A stretch of DNA of 64,000 bases from Datnioides undecimradiatus. Lineage: Eukaryota; Chordata; Actinopteri; Lobotiformes; Datnioididae. The notes below the pieces were generated by a model. It saw only the letters and a list, made by a program, of their open reading frames with translations, searched no databases and was not told the DNA's origin. Positions 3,415-46,917 of this stretch are shown one piece after another. Each line of letters starts with the position of its first letter. The first letter of the stretch is position 1. The translations under genes and the position numbers were made by a program. Location: the NCBI GenBank assembly GCA_008933995.1, contig WARS01000036.1, positions 21,798,285-21,862,284 of the forward strand. Reading direction: 5' to 3'.

Positions 3415-3440
3415 GCATAGCCTCCATGGATCTCATTAAC
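3415..3440 (-). promoter_or_regulatory. Shared OR upstream block (for OR-psi1)
   Basis: On the receptor's sense strand it reads TTAATGAGATCCATGGAGG, about 170 bp upstream of the relic's start. The same block precedes nine other ORs here (see findings). It persists although the receptor is dead. Confidence 0.55.
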
Positions 3441-3449
3441 ACCCCAACA

Positions 3450-5844
3450 AAGTGCTACTCTCTAATTTCAAACAACTTAATCAGCTTCTGAGGCCTAAAC
3501 TCATGAGTGTCGTTTACTTGGATGTTTGTCCTTGTCCATCAGGAGAAAAAACCCACAAGGCACAAGCCTGATCGCAGTTCTGCTATAGGGCCACAGGAAA
3601 ATATGAGAAATCAAAGTTTTGTTTTGCATTTAGCATTTTATACCAAATATACTGTTGGTTTTTAAATATTTTAAATCCTTGTTTTTTATGTCCATTTTAG
3701 CTATCGTGCAGTCTTTGCTAAGGATTGCATTAAATATCTTGGTATCCTGTCAACAGTCCTGGATCCCTCATGCAGCTGCAGGTATAAAATATGCCAGAAT
3801 GCAACTGGCATTTGCCCCATTCTCCAGACACTCTGAGCTACATATTTGAGATACAGTGAGGAAGGACTCCAATGACTCAACAGCTGTCCCCTCAGTATTC
3901 AGCCAAAAGTAACATCAAAATAACTGCAGACCACCTCTTAGGAGAAAGCGAGGCCCCTAGTTCGTAGATAGACTTCTTTTCAGACATGTCTGCATATTGA
4001 CATTAATGTATAGGTATGTGTACATCAGTAGTTTCTTTTACCTAAGATCTACAAACCAGATCATCATGACCAAGCGAGGTGTCAACAAGATGAGGCTCTT
4101 CTTGTCACCTTTATGTCAGGGGGTAAAAACAAGGACCGAGCCTCTAAATACAGATGTGGCACTGGATCCATGTCAGTGGGAGGATCATCTTCATAGGACA
4201 AGAAAGGGTGATGGTGAGCTATCTACTCTTCAAGCAAAGAGATCACCAACTGGTCTCCGAATATTACTTATTAACTCTGGGTGCAACATGTTTCCTCAAG
4301 GAGGAATCCCACTCTAAATAAACTAATCTACTGCATGGCTGGACCAAGCTTGGCAAATGAATTGCCTGTTAGGGCAGTGCTTCTGTACTGTCTGTTCTCA
4401 CAAGTGCACAATGGTTTCTTGGGTCTGGCAGGAAGTGCAGTAGAATTTGATAGTAAACTCGCACTACCTGACAACACTGGCAGTAGTGAATTTCCTTTGT
4501 TTAGTTGCTGGTTTCTTTCCTGTCTGAGTAGATATTTCCATGTCTGGAAGATTCTTCTGTTGGCAGAAAGCCTGGGGCTCAGTGCTATATTAACTCGCGG
4601 CTGCCATCTTTCCAAAGAGGCAGTCATAGTCTTTATGTTACCTTATTTCTAGGCTGGAACAGGAAGAAACCTGTCTTCAGGAATAAAGGAAAGAGTTCCT
4701 GCTCTGGTAGTCCTCCAGTCTGGAACCTGCTGTTGTTGAACTACAGTACATAGTATCTGTGTCCCTCTGATATTTAGATCAACTATGTGCACAGTGTAGT
4801 GGTTGATTCAGAGTGAAAGACTTCACCAGTTTGAAGTCCACTAACAAGATCTATATATGTCCCTGCTGAGTCAGGTGCTGCTGGATGCAGTGCAGTCCCA
4901 TCCTTGACTGTGATCCACTGACCCTGCTGCCTTGTCCAGTAGAGCAAGCAAAACAGACTGTGTTTCCAGAAATCACATAGAGAGTTGCTAGCATCTGTCT
5001 GTTCATGCATTTTTTTCTATTTTTTTCTGTCTACCTTTAAAGATGTGTTTCAGTAGTTTATTATTGATAGGAATATATCGTAGTGTTGAAATGTTTAAAT
5101 TGCGTTTTTTAATTTTTTAATTGATTATAGTTTCTGTTCATTTCTGATTCTACTGTTTGATGTCTTGAAAAGTGCTATATAAATATAATATAAACTTATT
5201 ACTGTTATTATTGTTTTTAATCAGCACCATCATTATTAATTTACTTCCTTCTCCTGTTTTTTCTCTTTTTTGCTTTTCTAAAACATACTTTTGTCAATCC
5301 ACATATACCCTCCAATACTAACTCCACCATCGTGTGTATTAATATCAATGATATTTATTTTTATCACCTATGCTGAGAGAAAATTCAGCATCACTTCAGA
5401 TTTGAAACAGAAACTGAACCTTGGAGACTCACTGTGTCAGATGAAGGAAGAAGAAATACAACTTTAATTTGCAAAAATGCAAAAAATAAAATAGGTGTTG
5501 AAATGTTTCCAAATAACACACTTTAATGATTTTCTTTTCAACTCATGAGAATATGAAATAAGCACATACTCTTTAAATGACATTGATTGTATAGTAATCA
5601 AAATTATTGGCATTATATTAAACATTATTTTTATAGTAACAATGTGCTTTTTGTATAATTTTATTTCTAAGGCTATTTGCCTATTCATTGATCAGTGATG
5701 ATGAGAGTTGATGTTGCTCTTTACTATACATTAATGTAAAACAAACTCTCACATTAAATACTTCACAGAAATCACGTCACTGAATTAGTATGACACAAAA
5801 CATTAACTGTACAGTTATTATTGTATGCACATTACAACATTTAA
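3450..5844. other. Intergenic, no gene recognised
   Basis: Mostly unique-looking sequence. Open frames such as 3997-4317 and 4281-4652 overlap, use no recognisable domain and have no splice context, so I do not call them genes. The part around 5040-5300 is AT-rich and contains a tail-like AT-rich stretch near 5170-5220. Nothing else is supportable. Confidence 0.45.
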
Positions 5845-6751
5845 CAGAAAAACCTCTTGAGGTGTTTGTAAATTTCCTTCATTTTCAGTCCATATATGAT
5901 TGGATTAAAGAGAGGATGATACATTATCATTTGTAGCGTCATAATTAAAGCGTAATGTTTTTGGAAAATCTGTGTCCATTCATGATAAAAAGAACATCAA
6001 ATGCAGTTAAACAGGTGAAATTGATTAAAACCATCAGAATTAACAGTAAACAGGTCTGTGCAGCTTCTTCCTGACTTCTCTACTACTCCGATAGGATATT
6101 ATAAAGATCTTTGCATGTAAACAATATAAATAGTGAGAAGAAGAACAATTTGCAAAACAATCCAAGCCATATATATTTGGTGCTGCCAGGGGTCACACAG
6201 TGGAGTTTGTAAACTGTGCTGTTACAAATTATTCCATTGAAAGTAAATTGACAGAGTTTTTTATTAGCATTCAGTATAATTGGCACTACCATCTGGCCAG
6301 TAGGCAGGAGCCAGGCTAAAACCAAGAAAGTGTTGACAGTTGTTTTCCTCATGATAGTTGCATATTGCAGAGGTTTACATATAGACACATATCTGTCATA
6401 GGACATGACTGATAGCAGTAGGAATTCAGAACCAGCTAGAGAGTAGTATATGAACCACTGAAAGAGACAGGCTAAATATGACATGATCTGTTTTTCAGAT
6501 AAAAAGTCAATCAGGAGCTTTGGGTAGATAGCAGTGCTGTAAATAACAGAGTTGATCAACAGAGCTGCGATGAAAATGTACATGGGCTCATGGAGGTTTT
6601 GGTGAATCCAGATCAAATACACAATAGTAGAATTAGTGCTTATTATTAGAATATATGCTGTGAGCATAATCACAAAATAAAGATATCTGTATTTGTGCAC
6701 TTCAACATATCCATTAACAAATATGTATGTCAGATTCACCTGATTATCCAT
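5845..6751 (-). pseudogene. Odorant receptor pseudogene (OR-psi2)
   Basis: The frame is intact from the start (6751) through TM4 to TM5. It has an N-terminal glycosylation site (NLT), PMYIF in TM2, SYDRYVSICKPLQY after TM3 and the extracellular-loop cysteines. It then runs out of frame in the TM5 region and stops at 6083 after 222 residues. The missing half (TM6 signature, NPIIYGLK region at about 5885-5920) is still present downstream in other frames, so the loss comes from small indels, not a large deletion. Full-length relatives here are 308-311 residues. The frame is also SYDRY rather than MAYDRY. Non-functional unless the indels are sequence errors. Confidence 0.85.
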
Positions 6752-6942
6752 GATTATAAACTAAACAAAACATTAAGAATTAAAATTCTCCTTACATTAA
6801 CATACCATACACAGTATCTTGTATTTGACTGCCTGGTACTGGACCTTGACATTTAAATGTGTGTTTGATGAAATATTCCAGTAGATACATCAAAATGCAG
6901 ACAGTGAACTGTTTGAGTCTGTGGACGGTTTTTATCAGCCTG

Positions 6943-6968
6943 CTTCGCCCTCCATGGATCTCATTAAT
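6943..6968 (-). promoter_or_regulatory. Shared OR upstream block (for OR-psi2)
   Basis: Sense strand: ATTAATGAGATCCATGGAGG followed by GCGAAGC and CTGATAAAAAC, the most complete version of the block. It lies 192 bp upstream of the start codon. Confidence 0.6.
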
Positions 6969-7164: not shown

Positions 7165-7395
7165 GTGTTATGCAGTAAGCACCATGGGGTCATTTGCTGC
7201 TAATATGGACGTGCTATCGACCCTGGTGAGGAGTCCTGATATCCCAGAATCTCAAAGTCTTAAATGACTACAGACCCATGGTCCCCGACATACCATGTGA
7301 TAATGAACTTTGATAGACTGATATTCTCCCATCTCAGGCCACTGGTCAGACCAGCACTGGGATCCGGCCGCATTCCTTCCAGGTAAACGTTCCAG
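7165..7395 (+). mobile_element. Short relic of a second non-LTR retrotransposon
   Basis: A conceptual translation of about 7255-7375 gives LNDYRPM followed, after frame breaks, by ILSHLRPLVRPAL. This resembles the RT N-terminal region of a fish LINE (the 'LNDYRPVALTSH...LRPLVRP' region). It ends just before the LINE at 7424. It is too decayed to classify. Confidence 0.4.
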
Positions 7396-7423
7396 GGAGT
7401 GGATCAGTCTGCAGACACAGCGA

Positions 7424-9118
7424 GGATCCATCCATCCATCTTCCTCTGCTTATCCGGGGCCGGGTCGCGGGGGCAGCAGCCTGAGCGGGGATGCCCAGAC
7501 TTCCCTCTCCCCAGACACTTCCTCCAGCTCTTCCGGGAGGATCCCAAGGCGTTCCCAGGCCAGTCGAGAGACATAGTCCCTCCAATGTGTCCTGGGTCTT
7601 CCCCAGGGCCTCCTCCTGGTGGGACATGCCCAGAACACCTCCCCAGGGAGGCGTCTGGGAGGCATCCGAAACAGATGCCCAAGCCACCTCAGCTGGCTCC
7701 TCTCGATGTGGAGGAGCAGCGGCTCTACTTTGAGCTCCCTCCGGGTGACAGAGCTTTTCACCATATCACGAAAGGTGCGCCCTGCCACCCTGCGGAGGAA
7801 ACCCATTTCGGCCGCTTGTATCTGTGATCGCGTTCTTTCAGTCATGACCCAAAGCTCATGACCACAGATGAGAGTAGGAATGTAGATTGACCGGAAAAAT
7901 TGAGAGCTGAGCCGAAAGGCGAAGCTCCTTCTTCACCACGACAGAACGGTACACCGACCGCATCCATCTCCCATTCCATCTTTCCCTCACTCGTGAACAC
8001 GACCCCAAGATATTTAAACTCCTCCACTTGGGGCAGGAACCCTCCTCCAACCTGGAGAGGGCAGGCCATCTTTTTCCGGTCGAGGACCATAGCCTCAGAC
8101 TTGGAGGTGCTGATTCTCATCCCCGCCGCTTCACACTCGGCTGCAAACCTCCCCAGTACATGCTGAAGGTCCTGCTTCGGTCGTACAGAGACCGGACAGC
8201 CCTCAGCCCTCCTGAATCCGAGGTTCAACTATCAGCCGAATTCTCCTCTCCAGTACCCTGGAATAGACTTTCCTGGGGAGGCTGAGGAGTGTGATCCCCC
8301 TATAGTTGGAACACATCCTCTGGTCCCCCTTCTTAAAAAGAGGGACCACCACCCCAGTTGCCCAGTCCAGAGGCACTGTTCCCGCCCACCACGCGATGCT
8401 GCAGAGGCATGTCAGCCAAGACAGCCCCACAACATCCAGAGACTTGAGATACTCTAGCCCACCCCCAGTGCCTTGCCACTGAGGAGCTTCCGAATTACCC
8501 CTGTGACTTCGGCTTGGGTGATGGACGAGTCGACTTCCGAGTCCCCAGTCTCTGCTTCCTCTATGGAAGGCATGTCAGTGGGATTGAGGAGATCCTCAAA
8601 GTACTCCTTCCACTGTCCAACAGTATCCCCAGTCAAGGTCAACAGCTCCCCACTTCCACTGTAAACAGTGTTGGCAGAGAGCTGCTTCCCCCTCCTGAGG
8701 CGCCGAATGGTTTGACAGAATTTCTTCAAGGCCGTTCGATAGTCCTCCTCCATGGCCTCTCCAAACTCCTCCCAGACCCGAGTTTTTGCCTCCGCAACCG
8801 CCTGGGCTGCAGAACGCTTGGCCTGCCGGTACCCATCAGCTGCTCAGGAGTCCCAGAGGCCAACCAGGCCCGATAGGACTCCTTCTTCAGCTTGATGGCA
8901 TCCCTTACTTCCGATGTCTACCACCGGGTCCGGGGATTGCCGCCGCAACAGGCACCAGGGACCTTACAGCCACAGCTCCGAACGGCTGCGTCGACAATGG
9001 AGGCGGAGAACATGGTCCACTCAGACTCAATGTCCCCAGCCTCCCTCAGGACCTGGTCGAAGCTCGCCTGGAGGCGATGGTTGAAAACCTCTCTGACAGA
9101 AGGTTTGGCCAGCGAGGA
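7424..9118 (-). mobile_element. RTE-clade (Rex3-like) LINE, 5'-truncated and internally deleted
   Basis: Minus-strand non-LTR retrotransposon. The 3' end is a short (CCAT)n run at 7427-7440, that is (ATGG)n on the element's strand. Upstream it encodes the C-terminal segment (MTERTRSQIQAAEMGF, WLGHLFRMPP), the RT thumb (VGGGFLPQVEEFKYLGVVF), the RT N-terminus ([17 protein letters not shown]) and the linker [13 protein letters not shown]. The RT core between RIQEG (about 8215) and the DLQHVLGRF segment (about 8180) is gone, removing the FADD catalytic box. The 5' endonuclease is missing. It is a sister of the copy at 26395-29280. The clade call rests on RT wording and the GATG-type tail; the exact family is an inference. 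Confidence 0.75.
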
Positions 9119-10716
9119 TCATGTTCTTTTATTTCACTCATAGTTTTGACACATGTTGGGAGCCCAGGGCCATAAGGCCCACTCATAAACAAATGTTCAA
9201 TATCACCACTAATGGTCAAAAATTCTGCAGTGAACCTTTAAAGCCACTCATTTCTTTTTAAACCACAGATTGTTATTTTTACATTTCTGTTTCTTCACTG
9301 ATTAAACAGTTACAAATAGTACAAAGTACAAATTAAACAGACAAGCTTCAGCATGTTAAACTGTGTTGGTAGGAATGTTCTTTTACTTGGACAGAGCTGA
9401 GTTACTTGTTCATAATCATTTGATTCCAGTTTGCTCGCATACAGTATTACCTATAACAGACAGACTTGGGATTGAAGTTCGAGGTACGTGGAAGGACAAT
9501 GTTGGTCTGATCATTTTCGCCATCTGGTTTTTCTACTGTCTACAGTCATGCAAAATGCTCTGAGGCTTTGAACTAAATGGTCAGCATTTTAACGTGCTTG
9601 TGAGGACAATAATACACTGACATATAGCAGCTACAATGCTATAATGTTAGTGTGTCAGCATGATAATATGTGGTTATTGGCAGTAAATAGCTGATGGGAA
9701 TGTCGTTTGTTCTGCAGGTCCTATGATGAACAACTTGACATTTTGTCCTGATGACGTTGCTAAATGAAAAGTGTGAGGGGCGGTTTTGTGGTTGTCTGCT
9801 TCCTTTTTGAGACAGTTCACTGAAGTTTTAGTGATTAAATGTGCTGGACAGACAGAGGCCAGGGAAGTAGAGTTTATTTGTGAACAAGACTCATTTAATG
9901 TCTTTACATTTTAAAGTGTCTTTACTCCTCACCCATGAAATGCAGCAACTTGATCTGTGGCTCTTTGCAGACGTTAACAGATGTCGTTAACATCAGTTTT
10001 GCATGTGCAGAGCTCGCAGTCAAGTTAAAAACAATATGTATGCAACTTCAGGTTAGACTTTCATTTTATGAGTTTTGAACATACACAAAAGAGGGAAGTC
10101 AGGTGACCTTTGACAGTTAATGGCAGTTCAGCAACCTTCACTTTAATGTGATAACATTTATGCTGTAATTAAAGTTTTAAGGAAACGTTACAGTGAAATT
10201 GTCACTGTGACTTTTTTATGAAAGGGACTCTATTCAGACCTGAAACACTGACTTTAAAAAATGCATGACAGTATCTTTGATGTCATGGTCACAGATTACC
10301 TCAAGGTTTTTAATGTTTGAGTTGAAAGGTGAACATTCATGCAAACATACGCACACAATAAGTAGTTGTTTCATACACGAAGGCTAGGTGAAACTTTATA
10401 TTAAAGGCATTACTGTGTAATTTGCTGTATAATTTTATTTTACCACATTAATTTAAAACAAAAATGTTTTTTTAATGAAATGAAATTTGTTCATGTACAG
10501 AAAGAATCAAAACATCATATTGAAGCTTAGAATAACAGCACTAAACTGATAATCATTAAATGCTGCAGCTCATACCTTCAAAACATTTCATTTAGATTTA
10601 AATCTTTAAAGAATCACATAAATTCATCTCGTCTACGTTATTATTTTGTATAAATGATATAAATATATATTACTGCAAATCTATATAACTACACGTTAAT
10701 TATTTATATTGATGTA
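9119..10716. other. Intergenic, contains a fish dispersed repeat
   Basis: Around 9560-9780 is a diverged copy of a dispersed fish repeat with CAGCATTTTAACGTGCT and, later, GATGGGAATGTCGTTTGTTC wording. A related copy lies at 51430-51610. The rest, to the OR at 10717, is AT-rich with no gene seen. Confidence 0.4.
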
Positions 10717-11643
10717 TTAGTTTAGTTTGTCTTGACAGAACAGGCTCTTGATGTGTTTAGAAATTTCTTTCATTTTCAGTCCATAAATAATCGGATTAAA
10801 GAGAGGATGATACAAAATGACTTGTAACGTCATTGCAAAACGCACAGTTTTTGGAAAATCAGATTCCAGTTTAACTATAATCACATCATATGTAAACAGA
10901 CAAGAAAAGTTTATCAAAATCAATAGGTGAGGTAAACAGGTCTGTGCTGCTTTCATCTGAACCTCTCCGCAACTTTGAAAAGTTATAATAAATATCTTTG
11001 TGTATGTAAAAAGTATGAATAGCAAGGGGAAAAGGGCAACATTTAACAAAACAATCACACCATATATAGACAGAGCTCTTGAGCTCACACAGTGAAGTTT
11101 GTAGATTGAATTGTTGCAAAAGATTCCTTTCAGAGTGAAGTTACAGAGTTCAGTGTTAGCACTGAGTGCTATGGGCACTGCGACCTGACCAGCAGGCAGG
11201 ACCCAGGCCAAAATCAGGAAGATATTGACAGTTGTCTTTCTCATGATAGTTGCATATTGCAGAGGATTACATATAGACACATATCTATCATAGGCCATGG
11301 CTGCCAACAGTAAGAACTCTGAACCATTTAAAGAGTAATATAGAAAACACTGAAAGAGACAGGCCGAATATGATATGATCTGTTTTTCAGATAAAAAGTC
11401 AATCAGGAGCTTTGGGTAGATCACAGAGCTGAAAAGAACAGAGTTGATCAACAGAGCTGCAATGAAAATGTACATGGGCTCATGGAGGTTTTGATGAAGT
11501 GAGATCAGACACACAATAGTAGAATTACCACAGATTATCAGAATATAAACTGTGAACATGATCATAAAATAGAGATATCTGTATTTGTGAACTTCCACAT
11601 GCCCACCAAGGATTATCAATGATGTATTTAATTCATCATCCAT
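10717..11643 (-). CDS. Odorant receptor, intact (OR-A)
   Basis: Single-exon, 308-residue class A GPCR. It would sit in the membrane of an olfactory sensory neuron and signal through the olfactory G protein; no ligand can be read from sequence. Features are an N-glycosylation site (NTS, residues 6-8), GN in TM1 (39-40), PMYIF after TM2 begins (56-60), a conserved TM3 cysteine (95), MAYDRYVSIC (116-125), three extracellular-loop-2 cysteines (167, 176, 185), the OR TM6 signature KAAQTCLPHL (231-240) and NPIIYGLK in TM7 (283-290). Length and motifs are normal for teleost ORs. The start is the first ATG and aligns with MDxxLN starts of the paralogues. The shared upstream block lies 178 bp away. 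It is a member of the large teleost type-1 OR group; subfamily not assigned. Confidence 0.93.
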   Translation of the reverse strand: MDDELNTSLIILGGHVEVHKYRYLYFMIMFTVYILIICGNSTIVCLISLHQNLHEPMYIFIAALLINSVLFSSVIYPKLLIDFLSEKQIISYSACLFQCFLYYSLNGSEFLLLAAMAYDRYVSICNPLQYATIMRKTTVNIFLILAWVLPAGQVAVPIALSANTELCNFTLKGIFCNNSIYKLHCVSSRALSIYGVIVLLNVALFPLLFILFTYTKIFIITFQSCGEVQMKAAQTCLPHLLILINFSCLFTYDVIIVKLESDFPKTVRFAMTLQVILYHPLFNPIIYGLKMKEISKHIKSLFCQDKLN

Positions 11644-11820: not shown

Positions 11821-11847
11821 GCTTCACCCTCCATGGATCTCATTAAA
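11821..11847 (-). promoter_or_regulatory. Shared OR upstream block (for OR-A)
   Basis: Sense strand: TTTAATGAGATCCATGGAGG, then GTGAAGC and, after six bases, GATTAAAAAC as the AT-rich box. It sits upstream of an intact gene, so it is the best candidate for a working promoter. Confidence 0.6.
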
Positions 11848-11859
11848 CTCTCTACCAAG

Positions 11860-14346
11860 AAGCTAACATGTAAACAACTTCATCAAACCAAGGGTCCCAT
11901 AGGAGCAACAACTGGAGCACTGTTTCTCTAGTTCTAGCATGACGTTGCCATTTAAAGTCCGTCTTTGTTAATATTGGATAAAATGATATGAATTTTATAG
12001 AAGATAATCATGGTTCCCGGTCAATGATCACATTACTTTTATGGTCTTCTGACTGTTCCTCTAGCACCATCATGATCATTTATTTGTACTGAATGGCAAC
12101 AGCAATGTTGAGATTACTCAGAGCATGAATTAAAAACTTAAGTCACCTGGGATTTCAACTCGCACCTCCATAAGGTCAGAATCTTTGGGTTGTCCAGTAT
12201 TGTGGCAGGAGCAGCAGTTTGGTAGTAATCAAGACTTCATCAGAAGGTGAGAGTGTGTAGTTGACAGGTGAGCGCGTGTAGTTGACAGGTGAGAGCGTGT
12301 AGTTGACAGGTGAGAGCGTGAAGTTGACAGGTGGGAGCGTGAAGTTGACAGGTGAGAGCGTGTAGTTGACAGGAAGATATAAAAGATTGTATTTAGCACA
12401 AAGAAGCCCCTTGGTCATTACTCTATGTGCAATGTCCTGCCTAACCACCAAAGCCTTGGCCAACAACAAGCATGTCAGCAAACGGAGGAACATTACCTTT
12501 GTCAGGACTAATGAGGACCCTCAGTTACAGCCCAGATCAGAGGTTGGCTTGCTCACCTCTGCATTGTACTGGGACCAGAGAGTCAACCTCTGGAGGCAGC
12601 TCAGAACATGAATGCCTCATGTTCCAGATCATTGCTGACTATGACAAACAGTAAACTCAGGGCATCAGGTCAGAAGGACTGGATGGTTGTCTTCTCCACA
12701 AAACCATCTCCACTGCACATCATTCACTTTTGTTTGGTACAGTTCCTCCCTCAAACACCTCACAACAGAGACTGTCAACAGCAGCTGTTGTATGTTCACA
12801 TACTTACTGTCCTCCCTACCTAGGGATGATCCTCCACATGAGGCTCAGGTTTGAGACAGATTTTGGTTTGTGCACCACTCAAGTTGCTCATTGCAGATGC
12901 AGTAACTCAAGTCTTGCTGGTGATTTAATTTCTTTGCTTGGGACCATATGACTCAACTGTTATAGCCAGCAGCTGCCACTTGCGTGTTACCTTGTTATTG
13001 ACCATGCTGAGACCATTTTGATCACCTTGTACATTTTATTCTGAGCTGAGGATGAAGGACTATGTGTAATATAAAGTACTGATGTCAGTAAAGATAATCC
13101 TCTGGGAGTTATCTAATGTTTAACCAGAATTTGTCAGTAGGTCTCTCTAGGCTGATTTGAGAAAATGAAATGAATGTCCGACAGGAGGGGAGACACTATG
13201 GAAATTTCTCAGTAAATTTTCCAGATTAGTTTCAGAGACAACTGAGCTAACTCAGTTAAACTTGTTTTCACTCATGCTCTCTGAAATAGTACAAAATTCT
13301 GTGTTGTAGAACAAAGGCAGTCTCCCTTCCGACATCCATTTATCCAACATCTACTCAGTCCTGTGTCTTTGTGGGCCCTCCTCACATGGCATACTGGCAT
13401 ACTCAGTCTGTATACTCAACATTTTCAAATATTACTAATGTGCAGACATAGCTTAGCATGCCCCACTGCACACACTTCTCTGCATTTTCAGACACTTTTA
13501 CAACATACTTTCTTTTCATTAGTTTAATTGTTCATGTCTTTTCATTTTTTTGTGTGTTGTTGTACTTCTTGTGTTTTGTGAGGTATATCGTTTTTTTTCA
13601 GGGTGGGTACCTGATGCTTTTGTTTGTTCAAATGATCCCAGCGATCTTTTATTTTTTATTAGTTTTTTTTATTTTTAATTATTATCTTTTTATGTCTTTA
13701 TTGTGCTGCTGCCTCTTTTTTATTTCTCTGAACCAAAGTTATCACAAGGCGCTTGTTTTGATCTGGAGGAGGAAAAAAGGAAACTGCCTGAGCAAAGAGA
13801 TGAAATAGAAAGTGAGACAAAAATAAAATAGCAAACATACACAATTAAGTCACGGAAAACCTTTTTAATATGGACATTTTCATTTAAAAGTCAGATGTCA
13901 TTTGCTTTAGTTTATTTACTGTTCATTAAATATTTGAATTGATGATCAGAGCAATGATATACATTCAAGGGATTTTGTAGCATTTTGATTTAATTACCAA
14001 ACACACTCTTTTGTTTTTGTCTTTTCAGATGAACTTCACCACACTGGACAATGGTACTAATATATGAATGTAGTTACTGGTAGTAGGGTTTATGTTTTGA
14101 TTGAAAATTTAATTTTTCATTGAATCCACAAAAATACAAAAACAAAAACAAAATGTTATACCGTATATTTAAATACATTTAAATTTGCTAGGATAGTTAA
14201 AGCTCATGATCCTCTTATGTTCTGCTGTGTGTTACTTACAAATAAATCCTTACATTGAATCCAACATGCGCCTGATTACATTACATCACTTCACTGATTA
14301 TAGTTTAAATATCAGATAATAATGAGTAACTCATGTTAAAAAAAAA
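11860..14346. other. Intergenic, minisatellite and unrecognised sequence
   Basis: Holds the 21-bp minisatellite at 12247-12372. Around 13500-13740 is a T-rich low-complexity stretch whose open frame is an artefact of composition. Region 12380-13090 is not recognised. No gene is supported. Confidence 0.45.
12247..12372 (+). repeat. 21-bp minisatellite, six tandem copies
   Basis: Six head-to-tail copies of a 21-bp unit (GTGAGAGCGTG-type start, AGTTGACAG end) with a few substitutions and no indels. As 21 is a multiple of three, the minus strand reads as a heptad repeat S-P-V-N-[YF]-T-L inside an open frame at 12176-12493. Confidence 0.9.
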
Positions 14347-15273: not shown

Positions 15274-15405
15274 GAAGATTGTCACAAACCCAACATGCAA
15301 AACAATTACAACTTTATATATAGTTACCTGACACTGAAATGTATTTGCATGGAGAGGTCAGAAAATGAACTGTTCGAATCTGTGCAATAATTTTAATCGA
15401 CTTTG

Positions 15406-15429
15406 TCAGCCTCAAACGATCTCATTAAA
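15406..15429 (-). promoter_or_regulatory. Shared OR upstream block, degenerate (for OR-B)
   Basis: Sense strand begins TTTAATGAGATCGTTTGAGG, so the homeodomain-like core is kept but the CCATGG palindrome is lost. It is 133 bp upstream of the chosen start, the shortest spacing in the set. Confidence 0.45.
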
Positions 15430-18155: not shown

Positions 18156-18181
18156 TCTTCACCCTCCATGGATCTAATTAA
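18156..18181 (-). promoter_or_regulatory. Shared OR upstream block (for OR-psi3)
   Basis: Sense strand: TTAATTAGATCCATGGAGGG then TGAAGAAG and TCATAAAATA. It lies 187 bp upstream of the start. The core is TTAATTAG instead of TTAATGAG, still a homeodomain-type TAATTA site. Confidence 0.55.
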
Positions 18182-18189
18182 CTCCTCCA

Positions 18190-19075: not shown

Positions 19076-19079
19076 TGAG

Positions 19080-29278: not shown

Positions 29279-29290
29279 GGGGTTGATCAT
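29279..29290. repeat. Target-site duplication, right copy
   Basis: Exact second copy of the 12-bp sequence, immediately after the ATGG tail. The first two Gs may also belong to the tail. Confidence 0.85.
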
Positions 29291-31867: not shown

Positions 31868-31981
31868 CAAACCAGAGCAGAGACCAGGCGGAAGAGCTGC
31901 AGTCCTACACGCTTCTCTGCAGTTTCCTTAGAGCTGTCACCCTCCCAAGACCACCACTACCCCCAGTTTCCTATAGAGACT

Positions 31982-37600: not shown

Positions 37601-37604
37601 AAAT

Positions 37605-38518
37605 GAGTTTATTTGAACACAACAACCTTTCGGAGTGTTTAGAGATTTCTTTCATTTGGCCATTATATGAAATGGCGGGATTAAACAAAGGATGATACAA
37701 AAATTATTTTAACATCTTATCAAGCGTGCAGTTTTAGGAAATTTGATTCCACCGAGCTATACTGACATCATATGCGCACTCAAAGAATGCCCAATTCAAA
37801 ACCAGCAGGTGGGGTAAACAGGTCTCTGCAGCTTTTTCCTGACTTTCTTTACTACTTACGATCGGTTAATGAGTATCTTGGTGTATAAAAACAATAAATA
37901 GCATCGAATTATGGGGTCTACTAAAACAAGCACATATATAGTAATTACTCTCGATTTTACACATTGAAGTTAACACCAAGTGCATTGTACAAATATTGCT
38001 TTTTTAAAGTGAAGCTACAGTTTGATTTCACTACACTCAGGAATTGCAGGGACTGCAATATGACAACAGGCACCGAGCCAGGCTAAGACCAGGAAAATAC
38101 TCACTGTGTTCTCCTCATGTGATGGTTTGGATATTGCGGGGTTTACATATAGACACATACCTGTCGCAGGCCATGGCAGCAAGCAGTAAGAACTCTGAAC
38201 TGCCTATAAGGTAAAAAAAAAACTGAAAAAGAGACAGGCTGAATATGATATGATCTGTTTTTCAGATAAAGAGTCAATCAGGAGCTTTGGGTAGATCACA
38301 GTGCTGTAAAGAACAGAGTTGATCAACAGAGCTGCAATGAAAATGTACATGGGCTCATGGAGGTTTTTGTGTGTCCAGATAAGGTACACAATAGTAGAAT
38401 TACTGCAGATGATTAGAATATATACCGTGAACATGATCACAAAATAAAGAAATCTGTATTTGTGAACTTCCACATACCCATCAAGAGTTATATATGTGAC
38501 ATTTGATTCAGCATCCAT
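37605..38518 (-). pseudogene. Odorant receptor pseudogene (OR-psi5), indel-rich
   Basis: Near-identical copy of OR-psi4. The N-terminal 100 codons are clean (MDAESNVTYITL through PMYIF and SEKQIISYSACLF). A short A-run disruption after TM3 (about 38210-38220) then breaks the frame, and from there to the C-terminal region near 37620 there are many single-base changes. The DRY region, TM4, the loop cysteines, the TM6 TCLPHL region and the TM7 region are all recognisable but scattered over frames. The contrast between the clean first third and the ragged remainder is odd. Confidence 0.82.
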
Positions 38519-38810
38519 GAAGACCTGCAAACTAACCATTAGATAACATTGGATTGTTTAACTCATCATCTGTTAACATTGTCTAAAACTATAGGTGCAA
38601 CAATAAAACAGGCTGATTGCATAACTTCAGTACATTGATGATAATTCATAAAGGAAATCTTACAATAACAATTACACCAATATCTGACCTGTACTGGAGC
38701 ATCTTACTCACTGAGTGGTCTCTGACCTTGAAATGCACTATCAGTGTGTGTTCATTTCCAAAAAACAGTAAATAGACTATGAGACTCCGTGGAAAGTTTT
38801 TATTGTATTG

Positions 38811-38837
38811 CTTCACCCTCCAAGGATCTCATTAAAC
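38811..38837 (-). promoter_or_regulatory. Shared OR upstream block (for OR-psi5)
   Basis: Sense strand: TTTAATGAGATCCTTGGAGG then GTGAAGC, one mismatch from the commonest form. At 293 bp upstream it has the widest spacing in the set. Confidence 0.5.
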
Positions 38838-38849
38838 TTTTCAAAAAAA

Positions 38850-39815
38850 TAGATCCTGATGAACAACTTCATGAAACTCTGGAGGCCTGAAGTCAGCAAT
38901 GTTTGACCTCTTACTAGTGCCCACTTACGCAACCTTTGTTACAATGATCTGCCATGGTCCGTTTGGTTTCTGGTGAGAGTTGAGGCATATACAGAACAGT
39001 TTTTCCAGAATGGTGGTGATATCTATCTGGTCACACCCTAAAGGCGTTCATGTCTGAACCTTTGATCATCTTGGCATGTAGGCTAAATCCATGTTACAGA
39101 TTTAACCTTTGCTGTGTATGCGCCTATCTTCCTCACAACTCTGACATTTTAGAGCCACTGTGCTTGGAAACTCTGCAGAGCTTGTTTTAGTTTTCAGCCG
39201 TAGTATTTTCTGTAACTAAACATAGAGATCTATGCTACCATTGTTTTCTTGTCTACCATGGACCTGTTAACACACCTTCACCTTCCAACAGACCTACTGG
39301 ATGTGTATCTACCACCAGGATGTCACCCATGTCCACTGCTAGATCTTGGTGTCATATCACTGCAGTTGAATAAATCATTGCATCTCCACAGTAAAATTAG
39401 AGCTATGGGGCACTGAATTTGGTGAGTTTTTTATAGAACCTACAACTGGTTAGCTCAGGTAGCTATGCAGCTAACTGGCTGATCCTGCCTGGACCAAACT
39501 AAACATCAGGGTTTTGGACATACAGGTCTCCTTAAATGAAATCATAGAGAGAGGCCATGTGGGAAGGTTCAGACTCCTACGATTAAAGGCTGAATCTGGG
39601 GCACATCCAGGTGCCATGAGTCTTTGGGATCCACAGAGGCTCCACAGAGTGGCCTATCTGTCTCAAGGAGCAATCTGTGTTCTTAGCCCAGACAGTTTTT
39701 AAAGAAATGACAGTATAATGAAAAATAAAGCAGGTCACAGGACCCAGTGAACAAGGTCTGAAACACTGTCCCCAGAGTTTCAAAAAGTTGTTTACAGCTT
39801 CATCTCTGTTGGTGG
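38850..39815. other. Intergenic between divergent ORs, no gene recognised
   Basis: Sequence between the minus-strand OR-psi5 and the plus-strand OR-C, so it is the head-to-head spacer of the cluster. No reading frame is supported. Confidence 0.45.
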
Positions 39816-39818
39816 AAA

Positions 39819-39846
39819 GTTTAATAAGATCCATGGAGGATGAAGC
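39819..39846 (+). promoter_or_regulatory. Shared OR upstream block (for OR-C)
   Basis: Reads TTTAATAAGATCCATGGAGG then ATGAAGC, with ACAATAAGAAC as the AT-rich box. It lies 203 bp upstream of the start and on the opposite strand from the blocks at 2-19 kb, so it follows gene orientation. Confidence 0.58.
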
Positions 39847-40048
39847 AACACAATAAGAACATTTCACAGGCTCAAACTCAGCTAACTTCTCAGAGTTTTG
39901 CAGATGAGCACTTCCTGAATGAATAAGGGAACCCAACACATCGGTCACGTTATCGCAATCATCAAAGTGAGACCTACTTTCTTTCTTTTTTTTCATATTC
40001 CTGTGAAACTACCTGCCTTTATTGATCAATATTTATTTGACTTTCTTA

Positions 40049-40984
40049 ATGGATAAAGACTTAAATGTAACATATATAACTCTTGGTGGGCACGTGGAAG
40101 TTCATGAATACAGATACCTCTATTTTTTTGTCATTTTTATTGCTTATATTCTGATAATCTGTGGTAATTTTACTATTGTGCATCTTATTGTGATTCACCA
40201 AAACCTCCATGAGCCCATGTACATTTTCATTGCAGCTCTGTTGATCAATTCTGTTCTTTTCAGCACTGCTATCTATCCAAAGCTCCTGATCGACTTTCTC
40301 TCAGAGAAACAGATCATATCATATTCAGCCTGTCTCTTTCAGTACTTTATGTTTTACACTTTAGGAGGTTCAGAGTTCTTACTGTTGGCAGCCATGGCCT
40401 ATGACAGATATGTCTCTATATGCAAACCTCTGCAATATGCAACCATTATGAGAAAAACAACCATCAGTATCTTTCTGGCTTTAGCTTGGCTCGTGCCTGC
40501 TTGTCAGCTTGTGGCCTCAGCAACAATGAGCGTTAATAAAAAGCTCTGCAGCTTCACTTTGAAAGTCATTTTTTGCAATAACTCAATTTACAAACTTCAT
40601 TGTGTGAGTTCAAGAGAAATATCTATATATGGTGTGTTTATGTTGCTAAATGTTGTACTTTTCCCAATGCTCTATATAGTTTTCACCTACGCAAAAATAT
40701 TTAAAATAACGTATCGAAGCTGTAGAGAAGTCAGGAGAAAAGCTGCAGGGACCTGTTTACCACATCTGCTGGTTTTGATTAACTTTTCCTTGTTGTGCAC
40801 ATATGATGTGATTATAGTTAGACTGGAGTCTGATATTCCAAAGATTGCACGTTTAATTATGACTTTACAACTGGTTTTGTATCATCCTCTCTTTAACCCA
40901 ATTATATATGGACTGAAAATGAAAGAAATCTCCAAACACCTCAAGAAGCTGTTGAGTCGAGACAAAATGATCCAGCATCAGTGA
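40049..40984 (+). CDS. Odorant receptor, intact (OR-C)
   Basis: Complete intronless OR of 311 residues from the ATG at 40049 (MDKDLNVTYITLGG). An in-frame ATG nine codons upstream at 40022 is likely unused. It has an NVT glycosylation site, GN in TM1, PMYIF, the TM3 cysteine, MAYDRYVSICKPLQY, the loop cysteines (KLCSF, IFCNN, LHCVSS), KAAGTCLPHLLVL in TM6 and NPIIYGLK in TM7. The C-terminal tail is basic with DKMIQHQ at the end, a few residues longer than OR-A. It is the only plus-strand receptor with a full frame. Odorant unknown. Confidence 0.93.
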   Translation: MDKDLNVTYITLGGHVEVHEYRYLYFFVIFIAYILIICGNFTIVHLIVIHQNLHEPMYIFIAALLINSVLFSTAIYPKLLIDFLSEKQIISYSACLFQYFMFYTLGGSEFLLLAAMAYDRYVSICKPLQYATIMRKTTISIFLALAWLVPACQLVASATMSVNKKLCSFTLKVIFCNNSIYKLHCVSSREISIYGVFMLLNVVLFPMLYIVFTYAKIFKITYRSCREVRRKAAGTCLPHLLVLINFSLLCTYDVIIVRLESDIPKIARLIMTLQLVLYHPLFNPIIYGLKMKEISKHLKKLLSRDKMIQHQ

Positions 40985-42495
40985 TGACTTCTGTAAAGAC
41001 AATGCACAGATGGGACTGTAAAAGCACCTGTATCATGACTGAACTGTAGAGTCCATCAGTCTCAACAGAATCAACCCTAATCTACTGTCAGGGTCAAAGC
41101 CTCAGGACTCAGTACTTCTGTTAACTAATTTCTGAAATCACAGAAATTTATCATAAAGGAAACACTGATTTTACTGAACTCCATTTGTTTTTATTTTGTC
41201 ATTGTTAACTGCTTTGTTTTGATGCCTGTCCTGTTTTTATTCTGAATTTTATTCCTTTACTGTGCAGTTTTATCTCTTCCTCACCATTTTAATAATATGG
41301 GATAAATGATTTGAAAGCATCATGGTGTGATTCAGTGATTAAAATCTTATAATGCAAACAGTCATCACTGTAACTTCTGGTACACTCAGTCTGAACCTCA
41401 CTGTATAAGCACGAACATGTTATTTATGCATCCAGCATTCAACAATGACATAACTTTCAGAGTAAAATTGATACTGTGTTAAAAATAGATATATTTCATG
41501 TTTTTAACCAATTGTTTGGTTATTTTAGGAGGATAGTAACAGTTTTTGATTCTTGATGTTGCTCAATACACAATCTAAACTCAATGTCTTCAGTCTCATC
41601 ACATGACCTGGATGTGGTCCAAACTAAATGTCAGGCGCAGATGGACGCACCTGAGCCTGTCTGGTTTGTTGTCAGAGGAGTTAAAGAGCTAAGCTGAAGT
41701 TGTCATAACACAACATTTATTCAACCAGAGCAATGATTCCAATTCTCTCTTTCAACACTTTGCTGGAAATGGTTGATGTGATCATGTGTGTAAGAGTGGC
41801 AAAAGGAAGCAGTCATGTTGGTTTATCTGCAGCAACATATCTGCATCGGTGAATTTATTGATAAGACTCAGGAAATGAAAGTTTGCAGAAACAGGACCTG
41901 AAGTCAGAGAGTTTGGTGTTTATTGCTGAGGCTACGGTACAGGCTTTGAAAATAGGACTTCATGTCCTATGGACTTCATGATCTGACAGGGAGACAGGAA
42001 ATGAAGTGATGTGTGTATAAATGGTGACTGGCTGATGAGGGAATAAGATTAATGTGAGCAGGTGGGAGGGGATGTTACACTAGAGCTACAGCTAGAGGAT
42101 AGGTCAGGGGAGTTGAGATTAGAGAAAGGGATGTGGGACATTTAGCAGTTGACTCAAAGGGTTCCCAGAGGATCTGATTAGAAAAAATGCACCAAGATGT
42201 CTGCATGATCCATGGAACCACATCGCCCCTAGCACTGTCACCTGCAGCTCATCTAAAGCATCAGTATTATACAGGAAGAGCTTCCACTGCAGAGGAGCAA
42301 CCTCTGAAGAACCATCATGCCAGAAGCAAGAATCAAAAGCTAGTGATACAATTAACAACAAACTGAGTCTGTCAGAGACACAAACACTTCTAGTGGAGGG
42401 ACACCGACGGGATGCAGTTGTCCTGTTTCCTGCTGATCGACACTGGACCAGTTTAACATTAACATTCAGAATATTCAGCAGAATATGAGAATATA
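40985..42495. other. Intergenic, no gene recognised
   Basis: AT-rich 3' flank of OR-C and unrecognised spacer. The minus-strand frame at 42119-42502 has no recognisable domain. Confidence 0.45.
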
Positions 42496-42496
42496 G

Positions 42497-42620
42497 ACTC
42501 AATTCAATTCAATTCAATTTTATTTATTCACAACCAAAGTCATCTCAGGGCACTTTACAAACAGAGCAGGTCTAGACCACACTCATTACTATTAATTACA
42601 CCCAACAGTTCCACCATGAG
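42497..42620 (-). repeat. LINE 3' tail / SINE-like fragment, copy 2
   Basis: Same sequence as 29783-29965 in the same orientation: (ATTGA)n tail, AATAAA and GATGACTTTGGTTGTG wording on the minus strand. It ends about 25 bp short of the shared OR upstream block of the next receptor. Confidence 0.6.
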
Positions 42621-42644
42621 CCATTTGTCTCTTTTGGTGAAGGG

Positions 42645-42670
42645 ATTAATGAGCTCCATGGAGGATCAAT
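42645..42670 (+). promoter_or_regulatory. Shared OR upstream block (for OR-psi6)
   Basis: Reads ATTAATGAGCTCCATGGAGG then ATCAATAAACCTGATTAAAAC. It lies 165 bp upstream of the start. A LINE-tail insertion begins just beyond it. Confidence 0.52.
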
Positions 42671-42834
42671 AAACCTGATTAAAACACTGAACACACTCAG
42701 ACTGTGCACTTCCTGAACATTAGGGGTGTACATGTCAGTGTCAGGTAACATGTAGGTAGATGATGAATCCATCTTCAAACTGACATGTTTGTAACATTAT
42801 CTGCCTGATTGCCTGTTAATGTTTGACGCTCTCA

Positions 42835-43274
42835 ATGGATGAGCAGTTAAATGTCACATATATAACTCTCAGTGGGTATGTAGAGGTGGAAAAATACAGA
42901 TATGTTTACTTCGTGTTTATATTTGCAATATATATTCTGATAATCTGCTGTAATTCCACTATTGTATGTCTCATCGTGATTCACCAAAACCTCCATGAGC
43001 CCATGTACATCTTCAGTGCTGCTCTGTTGATCAACTCTGTTCTTTACAGCTCTGCTATCTACCCAAAGCTCCTGATGTTTCTATATGCAAACCTCTGCAA
43101 TATGCAACCATCATGAGAAAAACAACCATCAGTATTTTCCTGGCTTTGGCCTGGCTTTGGCCTGGCTCGTTCCTGCTTGTCAGGTGGTTGGAGCAGCTGC
43201 TTGGAGTGCAAAGATCAAACTCTGTAACTTTACTCTGAGGGGAATCTTTTGCAACAATTCAGTGTACAAACTTC
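42835..43274 (+). repeat. Inverted-repeat arm 1 (440 bp)
   Basis: By eye, 439 of 440 bases match the reverse complement of 45550-45989. It begins exactly at the pseudogene's ATG and ends at AAACTTC. Confidence 0.85.
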
Positions 43275-43500
43275 GTTGTGTGAGTTCAAGAGCTCTGTCT
43301 GCGTACAGTGTGATCATTTTGCTCAATATTGCCTTTGTTCCGATGCTCTACACTTTTCACGTACACAAACATTCTCATCGTGACCTATCGAAGTTGCAGA
43401 GAAGTCAGGAGAAAAGCTGCACAGACCTGTTTACCACATCTGATCGTTTTAATCAACTTTTCATTGTTGTGCACATGCATGCAAACATTCTGTTTTATTA
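42835..43500 (+). pseudogene. Odorant receptor pseudogene (OR-psi6) with a TM3 deletion
   Basis: Starts MDEQLNVTYITLSGYVEV and is clean through TM2 (PMYIF, AIYPKLL). About 121 bp are then missing relative to OR-C, removing TM3 and the DRY triplet. The join after CTCCTGAT shifts the frame, so the first frame ends at MFLYANLCNMQPS. The rest (TM4, LCNFTLRGIFCNNS, TM5) reads in the next frame to about 43370, then shifts again before the TM6 region. A 12-bp tandem duplication (GCTTTGGCCTGG) lies in TM4. TM7 is not seen. Its first 440 bp are repeated inverted at 45550-45989. Confidence 0.88.
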
Positions 43501-43639
43501 ACAAATAAGGTCCAATAATATCTTCTGAATATTGTGTTGTGGAGATGTGATTGGTCCTTGAAAAGTATTTTTAATGATTTTAATGCTTTTATAATTAAGG
43601 CAGAACAAAGATCATTATCAGCTTCAACTGACAAGGCCG

Positions 43640-44195
43640 ATCGGTGAACCCAACAGCACGACTCAAAAACAGGATCTTAAATATAGCAAGAGTTTATTAA
43701 CACAAAATCACTCAAACGAGGAAAAACAATCTGACAATAAAAACTCTGACGTGGAAAATACTAGAAACCAAAATCCGCTCTGTAGAGGGAAAAATACTAC
43801 TAACAAAAAATCACTCTTTCAAGGAAAATAGATTCTTAATGAGTAAACAAAGTAACAAAGAAATTCTAGAAGCTAGCAATACATAAATTACCAAAACAAG
43901 CCAGATCAAAGAGCAAGAACAAGGACATGGATGCTAGTGGCCGGACGAAAACTGACACAACGAACTGGCACAAGACTGCGGAAGACACAGACTCTTATAC
44001 AAGCCAGGATTAGGAGAACAGGTGGAAACAATCAGGGCGGGGAAGACAATCAGACCAGTGGGAAACACGAGGGGAAGGGCAAGCCACCTGAAACGAGAGG
44101 GAAGTTAATATTTTCAAAATAAAACAGGAAGGCACGAGACAACACATATACACAAAAAGGAACTAAACATGACCAGCTTTACTTATCCATGACAT
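43640..44195 (-). repeat. Fish dispersed repeat, family R1, copy 2
   Basis: The reverse complement contains CGTTTCAGGTGGCTTGCCC, CTGATTGTCTTCCCCGCCC and TTTCCACCTGTTC, matching the order seen at 20340-20530. The left part is rich in short AAT/CTC motifs and has no coding frame. Confidence 0.55.
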
Positions 44196-44199
44196 CAAC

Positions 44200-45545
44200 A
44201 ATGTAATGACTCGAAAGTTTAATAAAATAAAATTATCACGCACACGGTTGATTCGTCTTTACCTTTGTATCAATGATGTTCATTATGATCACAGAGCATC
44301 ACACTCATTTTGGTTCTTCTGTAGCAACATCTCTGGTGGTGCCTTGAAGGAACAGAACGTGAGGTTTGTTTCCACCTTTCGGAGGTTGTAGTGGACCAGC
44401 AGGAAGTTCTTCTTTGGAGAGCAAATCCTCATCAAACCTGGTCCCACAACTCTTCCCCTGAATCTCATGGTAATACTCATGGTTTCTGATGGTCCTTCAA
44501 CTCTGCAAACTGATGTTAATCCATGTGTGCTGTCTCTGAATCTTGTCTTTGGGCTGAGCCACCTTTGTCGTTTTTGTTTCTACTTCCAGCTCAATGACCA
44601 GTGTCACGACTTTGAACAGAATCTAAACATTTATTCAGTTGCCTGCTCTGCTTTCTTGGTCATAAACATCTCATTTCCACTCTGTCACTGCCAGATTGTA
44701 TAGTTTGCTTTCGTACAGCTCTCTGCCCTTGTTGGATGAGCTTATCAGATCATATTATCTGCCATTTGACTGACGTGAACCTGAACTTTAACCTTGTTCA
44801 TGCTTGCGTTTGCACGTCAATTCTAGAGTGATTTGATTTAAGAATAAGGAGGTTTTAATGTTTAGAGGTACCATAGACCCACACAAGTGCTTTCAGTAAC
44901 TCATTAGGACTTTAATCAGGTGGAAGGTTGTGTGAAGCTATACAGCGACTCATGTTGTCACCAAAGGGTAGCAAAAATCTGGAGCTTATTCATCTGCCAG
45001 AAAAAAATTAAAAAGATAAAATTCAAGATATTTTAGTTGTAAATGTTTTAGTTGTAAATGTTTTTGTTTTTGTTTTCAAACAACAGTTATGATGAGTTGG
45101 TTTGGGATTGCCCATTGTTAAGACCCGGGTATGGATGGTTCAGAGGACTGGTTTTAAATTGCCCCCAATACGCGATAACATCAGAATCAAAATATATTTG
45201 TGCTGCTGTCAGTGACTGCAGTGTTTGAACAGCAGGTATTTTTAGGTCATCTAACTGACATTCAACACCTCACAGCTTCTATATTTGCAGTTTGGATGAC
45301 TTAGTGGCATCTAGTGGTGAGGCTGCAGATTGCAATGCATGGTCACCACAAAAAACAAGTTTCTCTGAAGAACCAGTGTTTGGTTTGTTCATTATGGTCT
45401 CCTGCAGAAACATGGTGATGCAACCTCGTCACATCCCTCCAGCAGAGTTACCAGAAGCTACTGAACAGCCAGTTTAACATCATGTGACTGCTGCACAATG
45501 CTGCTTTTAAAAGTCGTCACAATGAAGTTTTGATGAATCGTTATT
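44200..45545. other. Intergenic with one small dispersed repeat
   Basis: No gene recognised. About 45290-45470 reads GTGGCATCTAGTGGTGAGGC followed by TGCAGATTGCAA, a common fish interspersed motif. Confidence 0.4.
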
Positions 45546-45989
45546 TGTTGAAGTTTGTACACTGAATTGTTGCAAAAGATTCCCCTCAGCGTAAAGTTAC
45601 AGAGTTTGATCTTTGCACTCCAAGCAGCTGCTCCAACCACCTGACAAGCAGGAACGAGCCAGGCCAAAGCCAGGCCAAAGCCAGGAAAATACTGATGGTT
45701 GTTTTTCTCATGATGGTTGCATATTGCAGAGGTTTGCATATAGAAACATCAGGAGCTTTGGGTAGATAGCAGAGCTGTAAAGAACAGAGTTGATCAACAG
45801 AGCAGCACTGAAGATGTACATGGGCTCATGGAGGTTTTGGTGAATCACGATGAGACATACAATAGTGGAATTACAGCAGATTATCAGAATATATATTGCA
45901 AATATAAACACGAAGTAAACATATCTGTATTTTTCCACCTCTACATACCCACTGAGAGTTATATATGTGACATTTAACTGCTCATCCAT
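45545..45989 (-). pseudogene. Odorant receptor pseudogene (OR-psi7), inverted copy of OR-psi6
   Basis: Begins MDEQLNVTYITLSGYVEV and shares with OR-psi6 the same TM3 deletion, the same frameshifted ending MFLYANLCNMQPS and the same 12-bp TM4 duplication. It stops being OR sequence right after GIFCNNSVYKL, so TM5-TM7 are absent. Shared lesions mean that one is a copy of the other, or that the two have been homogenised. Confidence 0.88.
45550..45989 (-). repeat. Inverted-repeat arm 2 (440 bp)
   Basis: Partner of 42835-43274. The single difference seen is in the codon before LRGIFCNN (ACT against ACG, silent in the ancestral frame). The arms are separated by 2275 bp. Confidence 0.85.
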
Positions 45990-46201
45990 TAACGAAATAA
46001 GCATTAACAGATTAAACAGATAATCTTTCAGACATACGCAGATACAATTGAGTAGAGAAATCTCAGTTTGAGGTTAGATTCAACATCAGAATCAGTGTTT
46101 ATTCAGTCACAGTTACCTGACGCTGACATGCGGTCAGACTTAGCACTCTCTGAACTTTAGAGGTGAACACAGTCTAATTTGTTCGGTGTTTTTATCAGAT
46201 C

Positions 46202-46229
46202 GCTTCACCCTCCATGGATCTCATTAAAC
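46202..46229 (-). promoter_or_regulatory. Shared OR upstream block (for OR-psi7)
   Basis: Sense strand: TTTAATGAGATCCATGGAGG then GTGAAGC and CTGATAAAAAC, the consensus form. It differs from the block of OR-psi6, so the 440-bp identity does not extend into the promoter. Confidence 0.58.
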
Positions 46230-46890
46230 TCTTCACAACCAGAAAAATAACGTGACCAACTTTGTCAAACTCTGAAAAGTTTGTCCTGTTTGATTGAGAC
46301 ACATGACCCGCCCAGTGTTTCCTCTGTCCCATTGATCTTCACTGCTTCATCATGATGACGTCATTGAAATACTGATGGAAATGTGAATCAGTTTATTTCT
46401 TCCACCCTTTGGTCACTTTGTGCTGTTTTGTTGGATGATGGGGGAATGTCATAGTTTCATCCAACACAAGCAACCTTACCGGTACAGCAGACCCTTAAAA
46501 AACACTTGTGCTCCTATTTCAGAAACATCAATAATACTGCAACACTTCTCCTTGATTCAGAGTAGAAACCTTGTGCAGCTGCTCCAGCACTGCTGCCATG
46601 ATTGGATCTCTCCCTGGAGGTTCCAATCTAAAAGCACATAAAACATAATCTGTGATGTAGTCTGGACCTCTACTGTGTCATAGCAGAGACTCTTCAAGTT
46701 CAAGTTCCGAGGAGACAAAAAACAGAAAATGAATAATAATACAGCTAATTGTGAGAATATCATTTGCATTGAACACAAAACATGTCTCTAAACAAAGAAG
46801 AAGACAATGTCACATTGGATTCATTTTCAGCATGATGAAATATTGTGCAACAGCATGATCGATCAGCGTAAAGAGGTCACCTGTGGACAC
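46230..46890. other. Intergenic, no gene recognised
   Basis: Spacer between head-to-head OR-psi7 and OR-psi8. No supportable frame. Confidence 0.45.
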
Positions 46891-46891
46891 T

Positions 46892-46917
46892 TCAATGAGG
46901 TCCACCAAGGCTGAAGC
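46892..46917 (+). promoter_or_regulatory. Shared OR upstream block, diverged (for OR-psi8)
   Basis: Reads TCAATGAGGTCCACCAAGGC then TGAAGC. The core AATGAG and TGAAGC are kept and the palindrome is lost. It lies 169 bp upstream of the start. Confidence 0.45.

Follow-up and report, generated by a model that had tools for sequence, protein, structure and literature searches.

How the promoters of neighbouring odorant receptor (OR) genes are built in fish, and whether they share an element that olfactory transcription factors might read, is the question raised by a 64-kb stretch of the Datnioides undecimradiatus genome (contig WARS01000036.1; the window, in what follows). It holds eleven ORs, three of them intact (g3, g4 and g8) and eight broken, as found by tblastn with the three intact ORs as queries. 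A block of 20 bp, TTTAATGAGATCCATGGAGG, lies upstream of ten of the eleven on the strand of the gene, and we propose that it serves this OR subfamily as a proximal promoter module, of the Lhx2/Ebf composite type, in which a homeodomain site and an O/E (Ebf) site would stand side by side; judged from the sequence, we would put the probability of this at about 0.55. The choice of one receptor gene per neuron has been worked out mostly in mouse, and a promoter module in fish would offer something definite that can be mutated to ask how fish choose their ORs and whether promoters carry enhancer function; should the O/E half prove wrong, the block would be an ordinary conserved promoter box. The analysis covers this one window, and conservation is measured among paralogues.

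The block and its conservation

A first-pass annotation of the window had described a block before ten of the eleven ORs, on the gene's own strand and flipping with it, and this was borne out by a mismatch search and by leave-one-out weight matrices. With up to three mismatches, TTTAATGAGATCCATGGAGG has nine matches in the window, where 0.01 would be expected from shuffles, all nine being sites of that annotation; the tenth copy (start 46891, five mismatches) is the next-best window position by weight matrix. In leave-one-out scans of both strands of the whole window, 10/10 copies outscored every non-copy position. On the minus strand lie the blocks of the dead genes g1 (3421-3440, GTTAATGAGATCCATGGAGG), g2 (6949-6968), g5 (18163-18182), g7 (38817-38836) and g10 (46209-46228, exact consensus) and of the intact genes g3 (11828-11847, again the exact consensus) and g4 (15410-15429); on the plus strand lie those of intact g8 (39820-39839) and of dead g9 (42645-42664) and g11 (46891-46910, placed by matrix and alignment). 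The distance to the start codon, previously given as 130-290 bp, is corrected to 136-298 bp from the 3' end of the block or 156-318 bp from its 5' end, the aligned position being used for g1 and g11, which have lost their start codons.

The same block emerged from an ab initio search of the eleven upstream 500-bp regions, in which the best 12-mers (up to two mismatches) reached 10/11 regions against a null maximum of 6, whilst 16-mers (three mismatches) and 20-mers (four mismatches) each reached 9/11 against null maxima of 4 and 3, the null being 20 Markov sets per word length. Those listed, after filtering and from g2, g3 and g10, fall inside the block or no more than a few bases away from it, and the block is the best motif common to the eleven regions. 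That it might belong to a dispersed repeat, a danger which the first-pass annotation had itself foreseen, is a practically negligible possibility: retroelement-like open reading frames (ORFs) are common in the window by eye, but no copy away from an OR was found in the 64 kb, either by the matrix scans or by blastn with 180-bp stretches containing three of the ten blocks, which returned matches in OR upstream regions only.

The sole OR without a block is g6, where none was found in 2.5 kb upstream nor at any unassigned window position. Above the start codon, g6 and g7 share about 98 bp of homologous sequence and no more, the rest of the 420 bp upstream of g7 giving a chance-level match only (E 0.13) in those 2.5 kb, and the block of g6 has probably been cut off by a rearrangement or an insertion. 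Retention at dead receptors, as annotated earlier, holds for 7/8 dead ORs, six of these seven being within two bases of the consensus, though the copy at intact g4 is damaged and is one of the two worst. With a damaged block at an intact gene and good blocks at dead ones, the quality of a block does not track the health of its gene; the retention fits both a recent death of the genes and a continued use of their blocks.

All copies look homologous, and the block might be leftover homology: a stretch without function that tandem duplication, or gene conversion among the paralogues, left behind and that has been slow to diverge. Conversion, or copying in the very recent past, has been active here, the coding parts of g9 and g10 being identical at 440/441 positions while their upstream regions differ, and homogenisation of promoters by conversion has been proposed for V1R genes in mouse (PMC1955453). 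However, the tract shared by g9 and g10 reaches no further than the start codon and leaves the block out, and the flanks diverge on both sides, so that very short conversion tracts would be required: aligned flanks differ by 0.43-0.66 over the ten copies, and without gaps similarity is no better than chance beyond about 40 bp on the upstream side and 70 bp on the downstream side, weaker homology around the block being recovered by gapped alignment. The block is also about half as diverged as third codon positions, taken from the first 80 codons. Among nine genes (without g1, whose coding part is out of register) the mean p-distance is 0.156 for the 20-mer and 0.284 for third positions; among seven, with g4 and g11, the two worst copies, also removed, a choice that favours the block, the values are 0.088 and 0.278, the converted pair g9-g10 being left out in both sets. 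This is conservation above the neutral expectation, among paralogues and with conversion not fully excluded. Two counts pull the other way: of the coding 20-nt windows, 36% in the nine-gene set and 12% in the seven-gene set equal the block in conservation, and block divergence equals or exceeds third-position divergence in 6/45 gene pairs, five with g11 and the other being g9-g10 (nine of the 45 pairs include the misaligned g1). Given a divergence below that of third codon positions in the genes it precedes, the block is probably not just a leftover of duplication, an origin which we consider unlikely.

A probable homeodomain site and its neighbour

The left half of the block, TTTAATGAG, is identical with the core of ACATAACTTTTTAATGAGTCT, the extended homeodomain site known from mouse (PMC8213819), and this extended site has been employed in strong OR transgenes (PMC8213819, PMC7804114). 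The core reads TAATGA in 7/10 copies and TAATTA in g5; TAATKR, the form of olfactory homeodomain (Lhx2/Emx2) site used in PMC5638857, is thus found in 8/10, being missed by g8 (TAATAA) and g11 (CAATGA). The first-pass annotation had proposed a promoter element with a homeodomain core, and position, strand, specificity within the window, low divergence and the identity of TTTAATGAG all argue for one. The left half is likely to be a homeodomain site as predicted; in the first step of the mechanism that we propose, TTTAATGAG/TTAATTAG would be a putative site for an olfactory Lhx2-type LIM-homeodomain factor, or Emx2.

The arrangement had been described as centred on a CCATGG palindrome. CCATGG is perfect in only 7/10 copies, one of the three broken copies standing at an intact gene, and is not the centre of the block, which is better read as a homeodomain site followed by a degenerate O/E site. 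The order and close spacing of the right half, TCCATGGAGG, next to the homeodomain half are as in the mouse Lhx2/Ebf composite, and TCC...GAGG is kept in 8/10 copies. With YCCCNNGGGR, the O/E consensus form printed in PMC8213819, seven of the ten blocks have a TAATKR site beside a match with two mismatches, whereas such a neighbour occurs at 2 of the other 209 TAATKR sites of the window (about 1%) and at about 2.2% in Markov sets. A further O/E form, YTCCCYRGRGR, agrees with this published-consensus test: with up to two mismatches in the forward orientation it falls beside a homeodomain site at seven window sites, all of them blocks, and in both orientations it gives eight hits at the same seven sites (Markov mean 2.2, maximum 7, 40 sets). 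The 17-position composite pattern printed in PMC11643329 is matched exactly in 7/10 copies as against 1.2% of all window 20-mers; window frequencies served as the yardstick because this pattern is commoner in the window than in Markov sequence, with 202 hits against a mean of 103, twice as many. The Ebf half of mouse composites is described as loose in sequence and strict in spacing (PMC5608512), which is also the pattern of the block.

Two other lines were tried and dropped. A strict Ebf palindrome, TCCCNNGGGA, gave 28 hits with up to three mismatches against a Markov mean of 27, and is at background level; substitution tolerance, counted by hand against the composite alphabet, gave 9/12 allowed changes where about 8.3 are expected, and lends no support.

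Several results speak against an O/E half. YCCCNNGGGR is not matched in full by any copy, two of its eight fixed positions being missed in 8/10 copies and three in g4 and g11. The window contains nine pairs of a TAATKR site and a two-mismatch YCCCNNGGGR match, inside the Markov range (mean 3.4, maximum 13, 100 sets), and because the copies share descent the O/E match amounts to one event at p of about 0.01-0.02 and not to ten. A second published form, YYYCARRRR with up to one mismatch, matches eight blocks but also 11 other sites, its 22 hits being a number that Markov sets can reach too (mean 12.4, maximum 24), and has no specificity. The register of the exact composite match is shifted by 1 bp from the best O/E register; g9 alone fits the pattern in both, and in the best O/E register the spacer base A falls outside the composite pattern in six of those seven copies. 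At intact g4 the homeodomain half is kept and the right half is damaged (GATCGTTTGAGG). As the O/E coincidence stands at about 1-2% for a single ancestral event, and the second O/E form is unspecific, the homeodomain half is graded as likely and the right half as a putative O/E (Ebf) site at about even odds.

Some of these counts would equally suit a promoter element with the homeodomain core and no composite, the CCATGG half being read by a non-Ebf factor or serving as a mere spacer. The O/E match is imperfect at at least two of eight fixed positions in all ten copies, the YYYCARRRR control is unspecific, and 7/16 departures from the consensus fall inside CCATGG, though six of these seven are in g4 and g11. 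Against this, the retention of TCC...GAGG suggests that the right half is constrained, the order and spacing fit a composite, and the mouse Ebf halves are themselves reported to be loose (PMC5608512); we regard the alternative as possible but doubtful. In the composite-type module that we prefer, TCCATGGAGG would, at about even odds, be a low-affinity O/E (Ebf) site directly beside the homeodomain site, and both halves would form an Lhx2/Ebf composite-type site holding two proteins side by side.

The leaders and the receptor cluster

Downstream of the block, [AT]TAAAA is found at +29 to +34 from the block start in 8/10 copies and TATAAAA, sought at +22 to +48, in none of the ten. Perfect initiators occur in 6/10 at scattered distances of 21-35, none standing out at a fixed distance. 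A pyrimidine-A pair at +61 to +64 in 8/10 was considered as a fixed-distance initiator and left unused, being common by chance according to an estimate (not simulated). The TATA-like box of the first-pass annotation thus survives as an AT-rich element and is weak as a TATA box; of the tail described with it, [AT]TAAAA holds whereas GTGAAGC, exact in 3/10, was overstated, and CAGACT and GTTCAC are found in 5/10 and 4/10. In a third and weak step of the mechanism, the ATAAAA/TTAAAA box 29-34 bp from the block start might position transcription and the leader might be spliced, which would remove upstream ATGs.

Each of the ten leaders contains 2 to 10 such ATGs. AG/GT (AGGT) lies at +98 to +122 from the block start in 6/10 and CAG/GTAAC in 3/10, and acceptor-like AG sites lie within 13 bp of the start codon in 5/10. 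The segment bearing CAG/GTAAC, TGTCAGTGTCAGGTAAC, is splice-donor-like and is found at 42733-42749 (+), 15323-15339 (-) and 46112-46128 (-), three window matches against 0.29 expected, a number reached in 1/100 shuffles; it may possibly be the end of a 5' non-coding exon in these three leaders. A short 5' intron is plausible and would agree with the classic OR gene, which has one non-coding and one coding exon (PMC4122780).

A transcribed feature, namely a short upstream ORF in the Kozak context of CCATGG or the edge of a 5' exon, could in principle account for the block, and ATGGAGGGTGAAGC would encode short peptides such as MEGEAI. However, the ATG is absent in 3/10 copies, intact g4 included, the peptides vary from 4 to 30 residues, only 3/7 are in frame with the OR, and the window has no Rfam match. 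The upstream-ORF reading was rejected on these counts, and a transcribed feature of either kind is very improbable.

A second conserved element, CAGAGTTTGATGAAGTTGTT, lies 15-27 bp upstream of the block at 5/10 copies, at 18198-18217 (-), 11873-11892 (-), 38862-38881 (-), 39773-39792 (+) and 46255-46274 (-); these are its five matches with up to three mismatches, against 0.01 expected.

The receptors themselves were located by tblastn as described. The intact genes are g3 (10717-11643, -; also Pfam 7tm_4 and 7tm_1), g4 (14347-15273, -) and g8 (40049-40984, +; also Pfam and a protein similarity search), the last being the only intact OR on the plus strand. The dead genes are g1 (2356-3249, -; start codon lost), g2 (5844-6751, -), g5 (17083-17969, -) and g7 (37602-38518, -), each of these three with a broken frame, g6 (19077-19969, -; block sought as above), g9 (42835-43475, +; internal deletion and broken frame), g10 (45509-45989, -; truncated, with the same internal deletion as g9) and g11 (47092-48007, +; start codon lost and frame broken). 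OR-domain Pfam matches were obtained for all five OR translations submitted in a run of six proteins, and a PDB search confirmed an OR-type receptor and nothing further. The best-scoring relative of g8 is an 'olfactory receptor 6N2-like' protein of Chaetodon trifascialis (85% identity), and among the 120 best of 3717 matches the named relatives are fish ORs, from species which we take to be percomorphs; Scatophagus argus, Seriola and Lates are, besides Chaetodon, among the sources of the nearest ones.

Five ORs in both orientations are packed into about 10 kb (37602-48007), with intact g8 amid four dead neighbours. The near-identical coding parts of g9 and g10 span 42834-43274 (+) and 45550-45990 (-) in inverted orientation and end abruptly at the start codon; they could reflect gene conversion in the very recent past, a local inverted copy or an assembly artefact. 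The cluster is split by ORFs resembling non-LTR retroelements (by eye) at 7346-9175, 26487-29314 and 31028-34028, parts of the first two sets being 91-95% alike in inverted orientation. Outside the cluster, a 421-codon ORF at 56135-57400 (+) has no Pfam or NCBIfam match. Scans of the window against NCBIfam, against Rfam at gathering score and for tRNAs were empty, and OR patterns run against prokaryote and viral contig collections, in case of hidden fish DNA, gave 12 and 45 matches, none confirmed as an OR.

Comparison with known promoters and enhancers

Homeodomain and O/E sites are established features of OR promoters (PMC3247239, PMC5318403). Mammalian proximal promoters combine, as here, homeodomain and O/E-like sites with a TATA-like AT-rich box, all at most a few hundred bp from the gene (Young 2011, PMC3247239; PMC5318403); in most mouse OR promoters, however, the two sites are reported not to be juxtaposed (PMC5608512), whereas in the fish cluster a fixed side-by-side arrangement stands at 10/11 genes. 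Upstream homology peaking above its surroundings is known from subfamily paralogues of V1R promoters, as in the fish cluster, but the V1R peaks exceed 500 bp (PMC1955453) and the fish peak is a sharp core of 20 bp with looser homology around it. The extended homeodomain site AACTTTTTAATGA of the H and P elements, with a similar site in J (PMC7804114, PMC8213819), has the identical TTTAATGAG core; its 5' extension AACTT is not clearly kept in the fish block by eye, and in the fish block an O/E-like half follows.

Shared promoters might make all genes of the cluster about equally likely to be chosen in a sensory neuron. A bolder form of the proposal would, for this fish lineage, place the Lhx2/Ebf composite in the promoters themselves, so that each OR promoter, those of dead genes included, could act as a small enhancer like a Greek Island, the cluster, with its ten sites spread over 43 kb, would form a hub of its own making, and dead genes would keep their blocks because these still help neighbouring genes. 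We hold this to be quite improbable; if true, promoters would be built from enhancer-type sites, and the mouse division between promoter and enhancer would be only one of several arrangements, and perhaps a later one. The mouse enhancers H and Lipsi and two TAAR enhancers drive reporters in the zebrafish nose, though J, a class I element, fails to, and no zebrafish counterpart is recognised for J or for the TAAR enhancers (PMC5638857, PMC8213717). In a literature search that was incomplete for subscription papers, we found neither this block nor composite sites described for the promoters of fish ORs.

The closest known system is the composite of the mouse Greek Islands (Monahan 2017, PMC5608512; the J element, PMC7804114; PMC11643329). 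There, likewise, the two sites share a strand, the homeodomain site coming first and an O/E-like site 1-2 bp after it (1 bp spacing and a printed pattern in PMC11643329), the O/E half is degenerate, and the site is linked to OR genes. In contrast, the O/E half of the fish site, known from its sequence, is weaker than the consensus, and the fish block sits in nearly every proximal promoter of its cluster, whereas the mouse composite marks distant enhancers and is reported to be depleted from OR promoters (PMC5608512, PMC11643329). Because of this difference in placement, one fixed module of adjoining sites at almost all promoters of a cluster would, if the fish site is a composite, be a real variant of the mouse arrangement.

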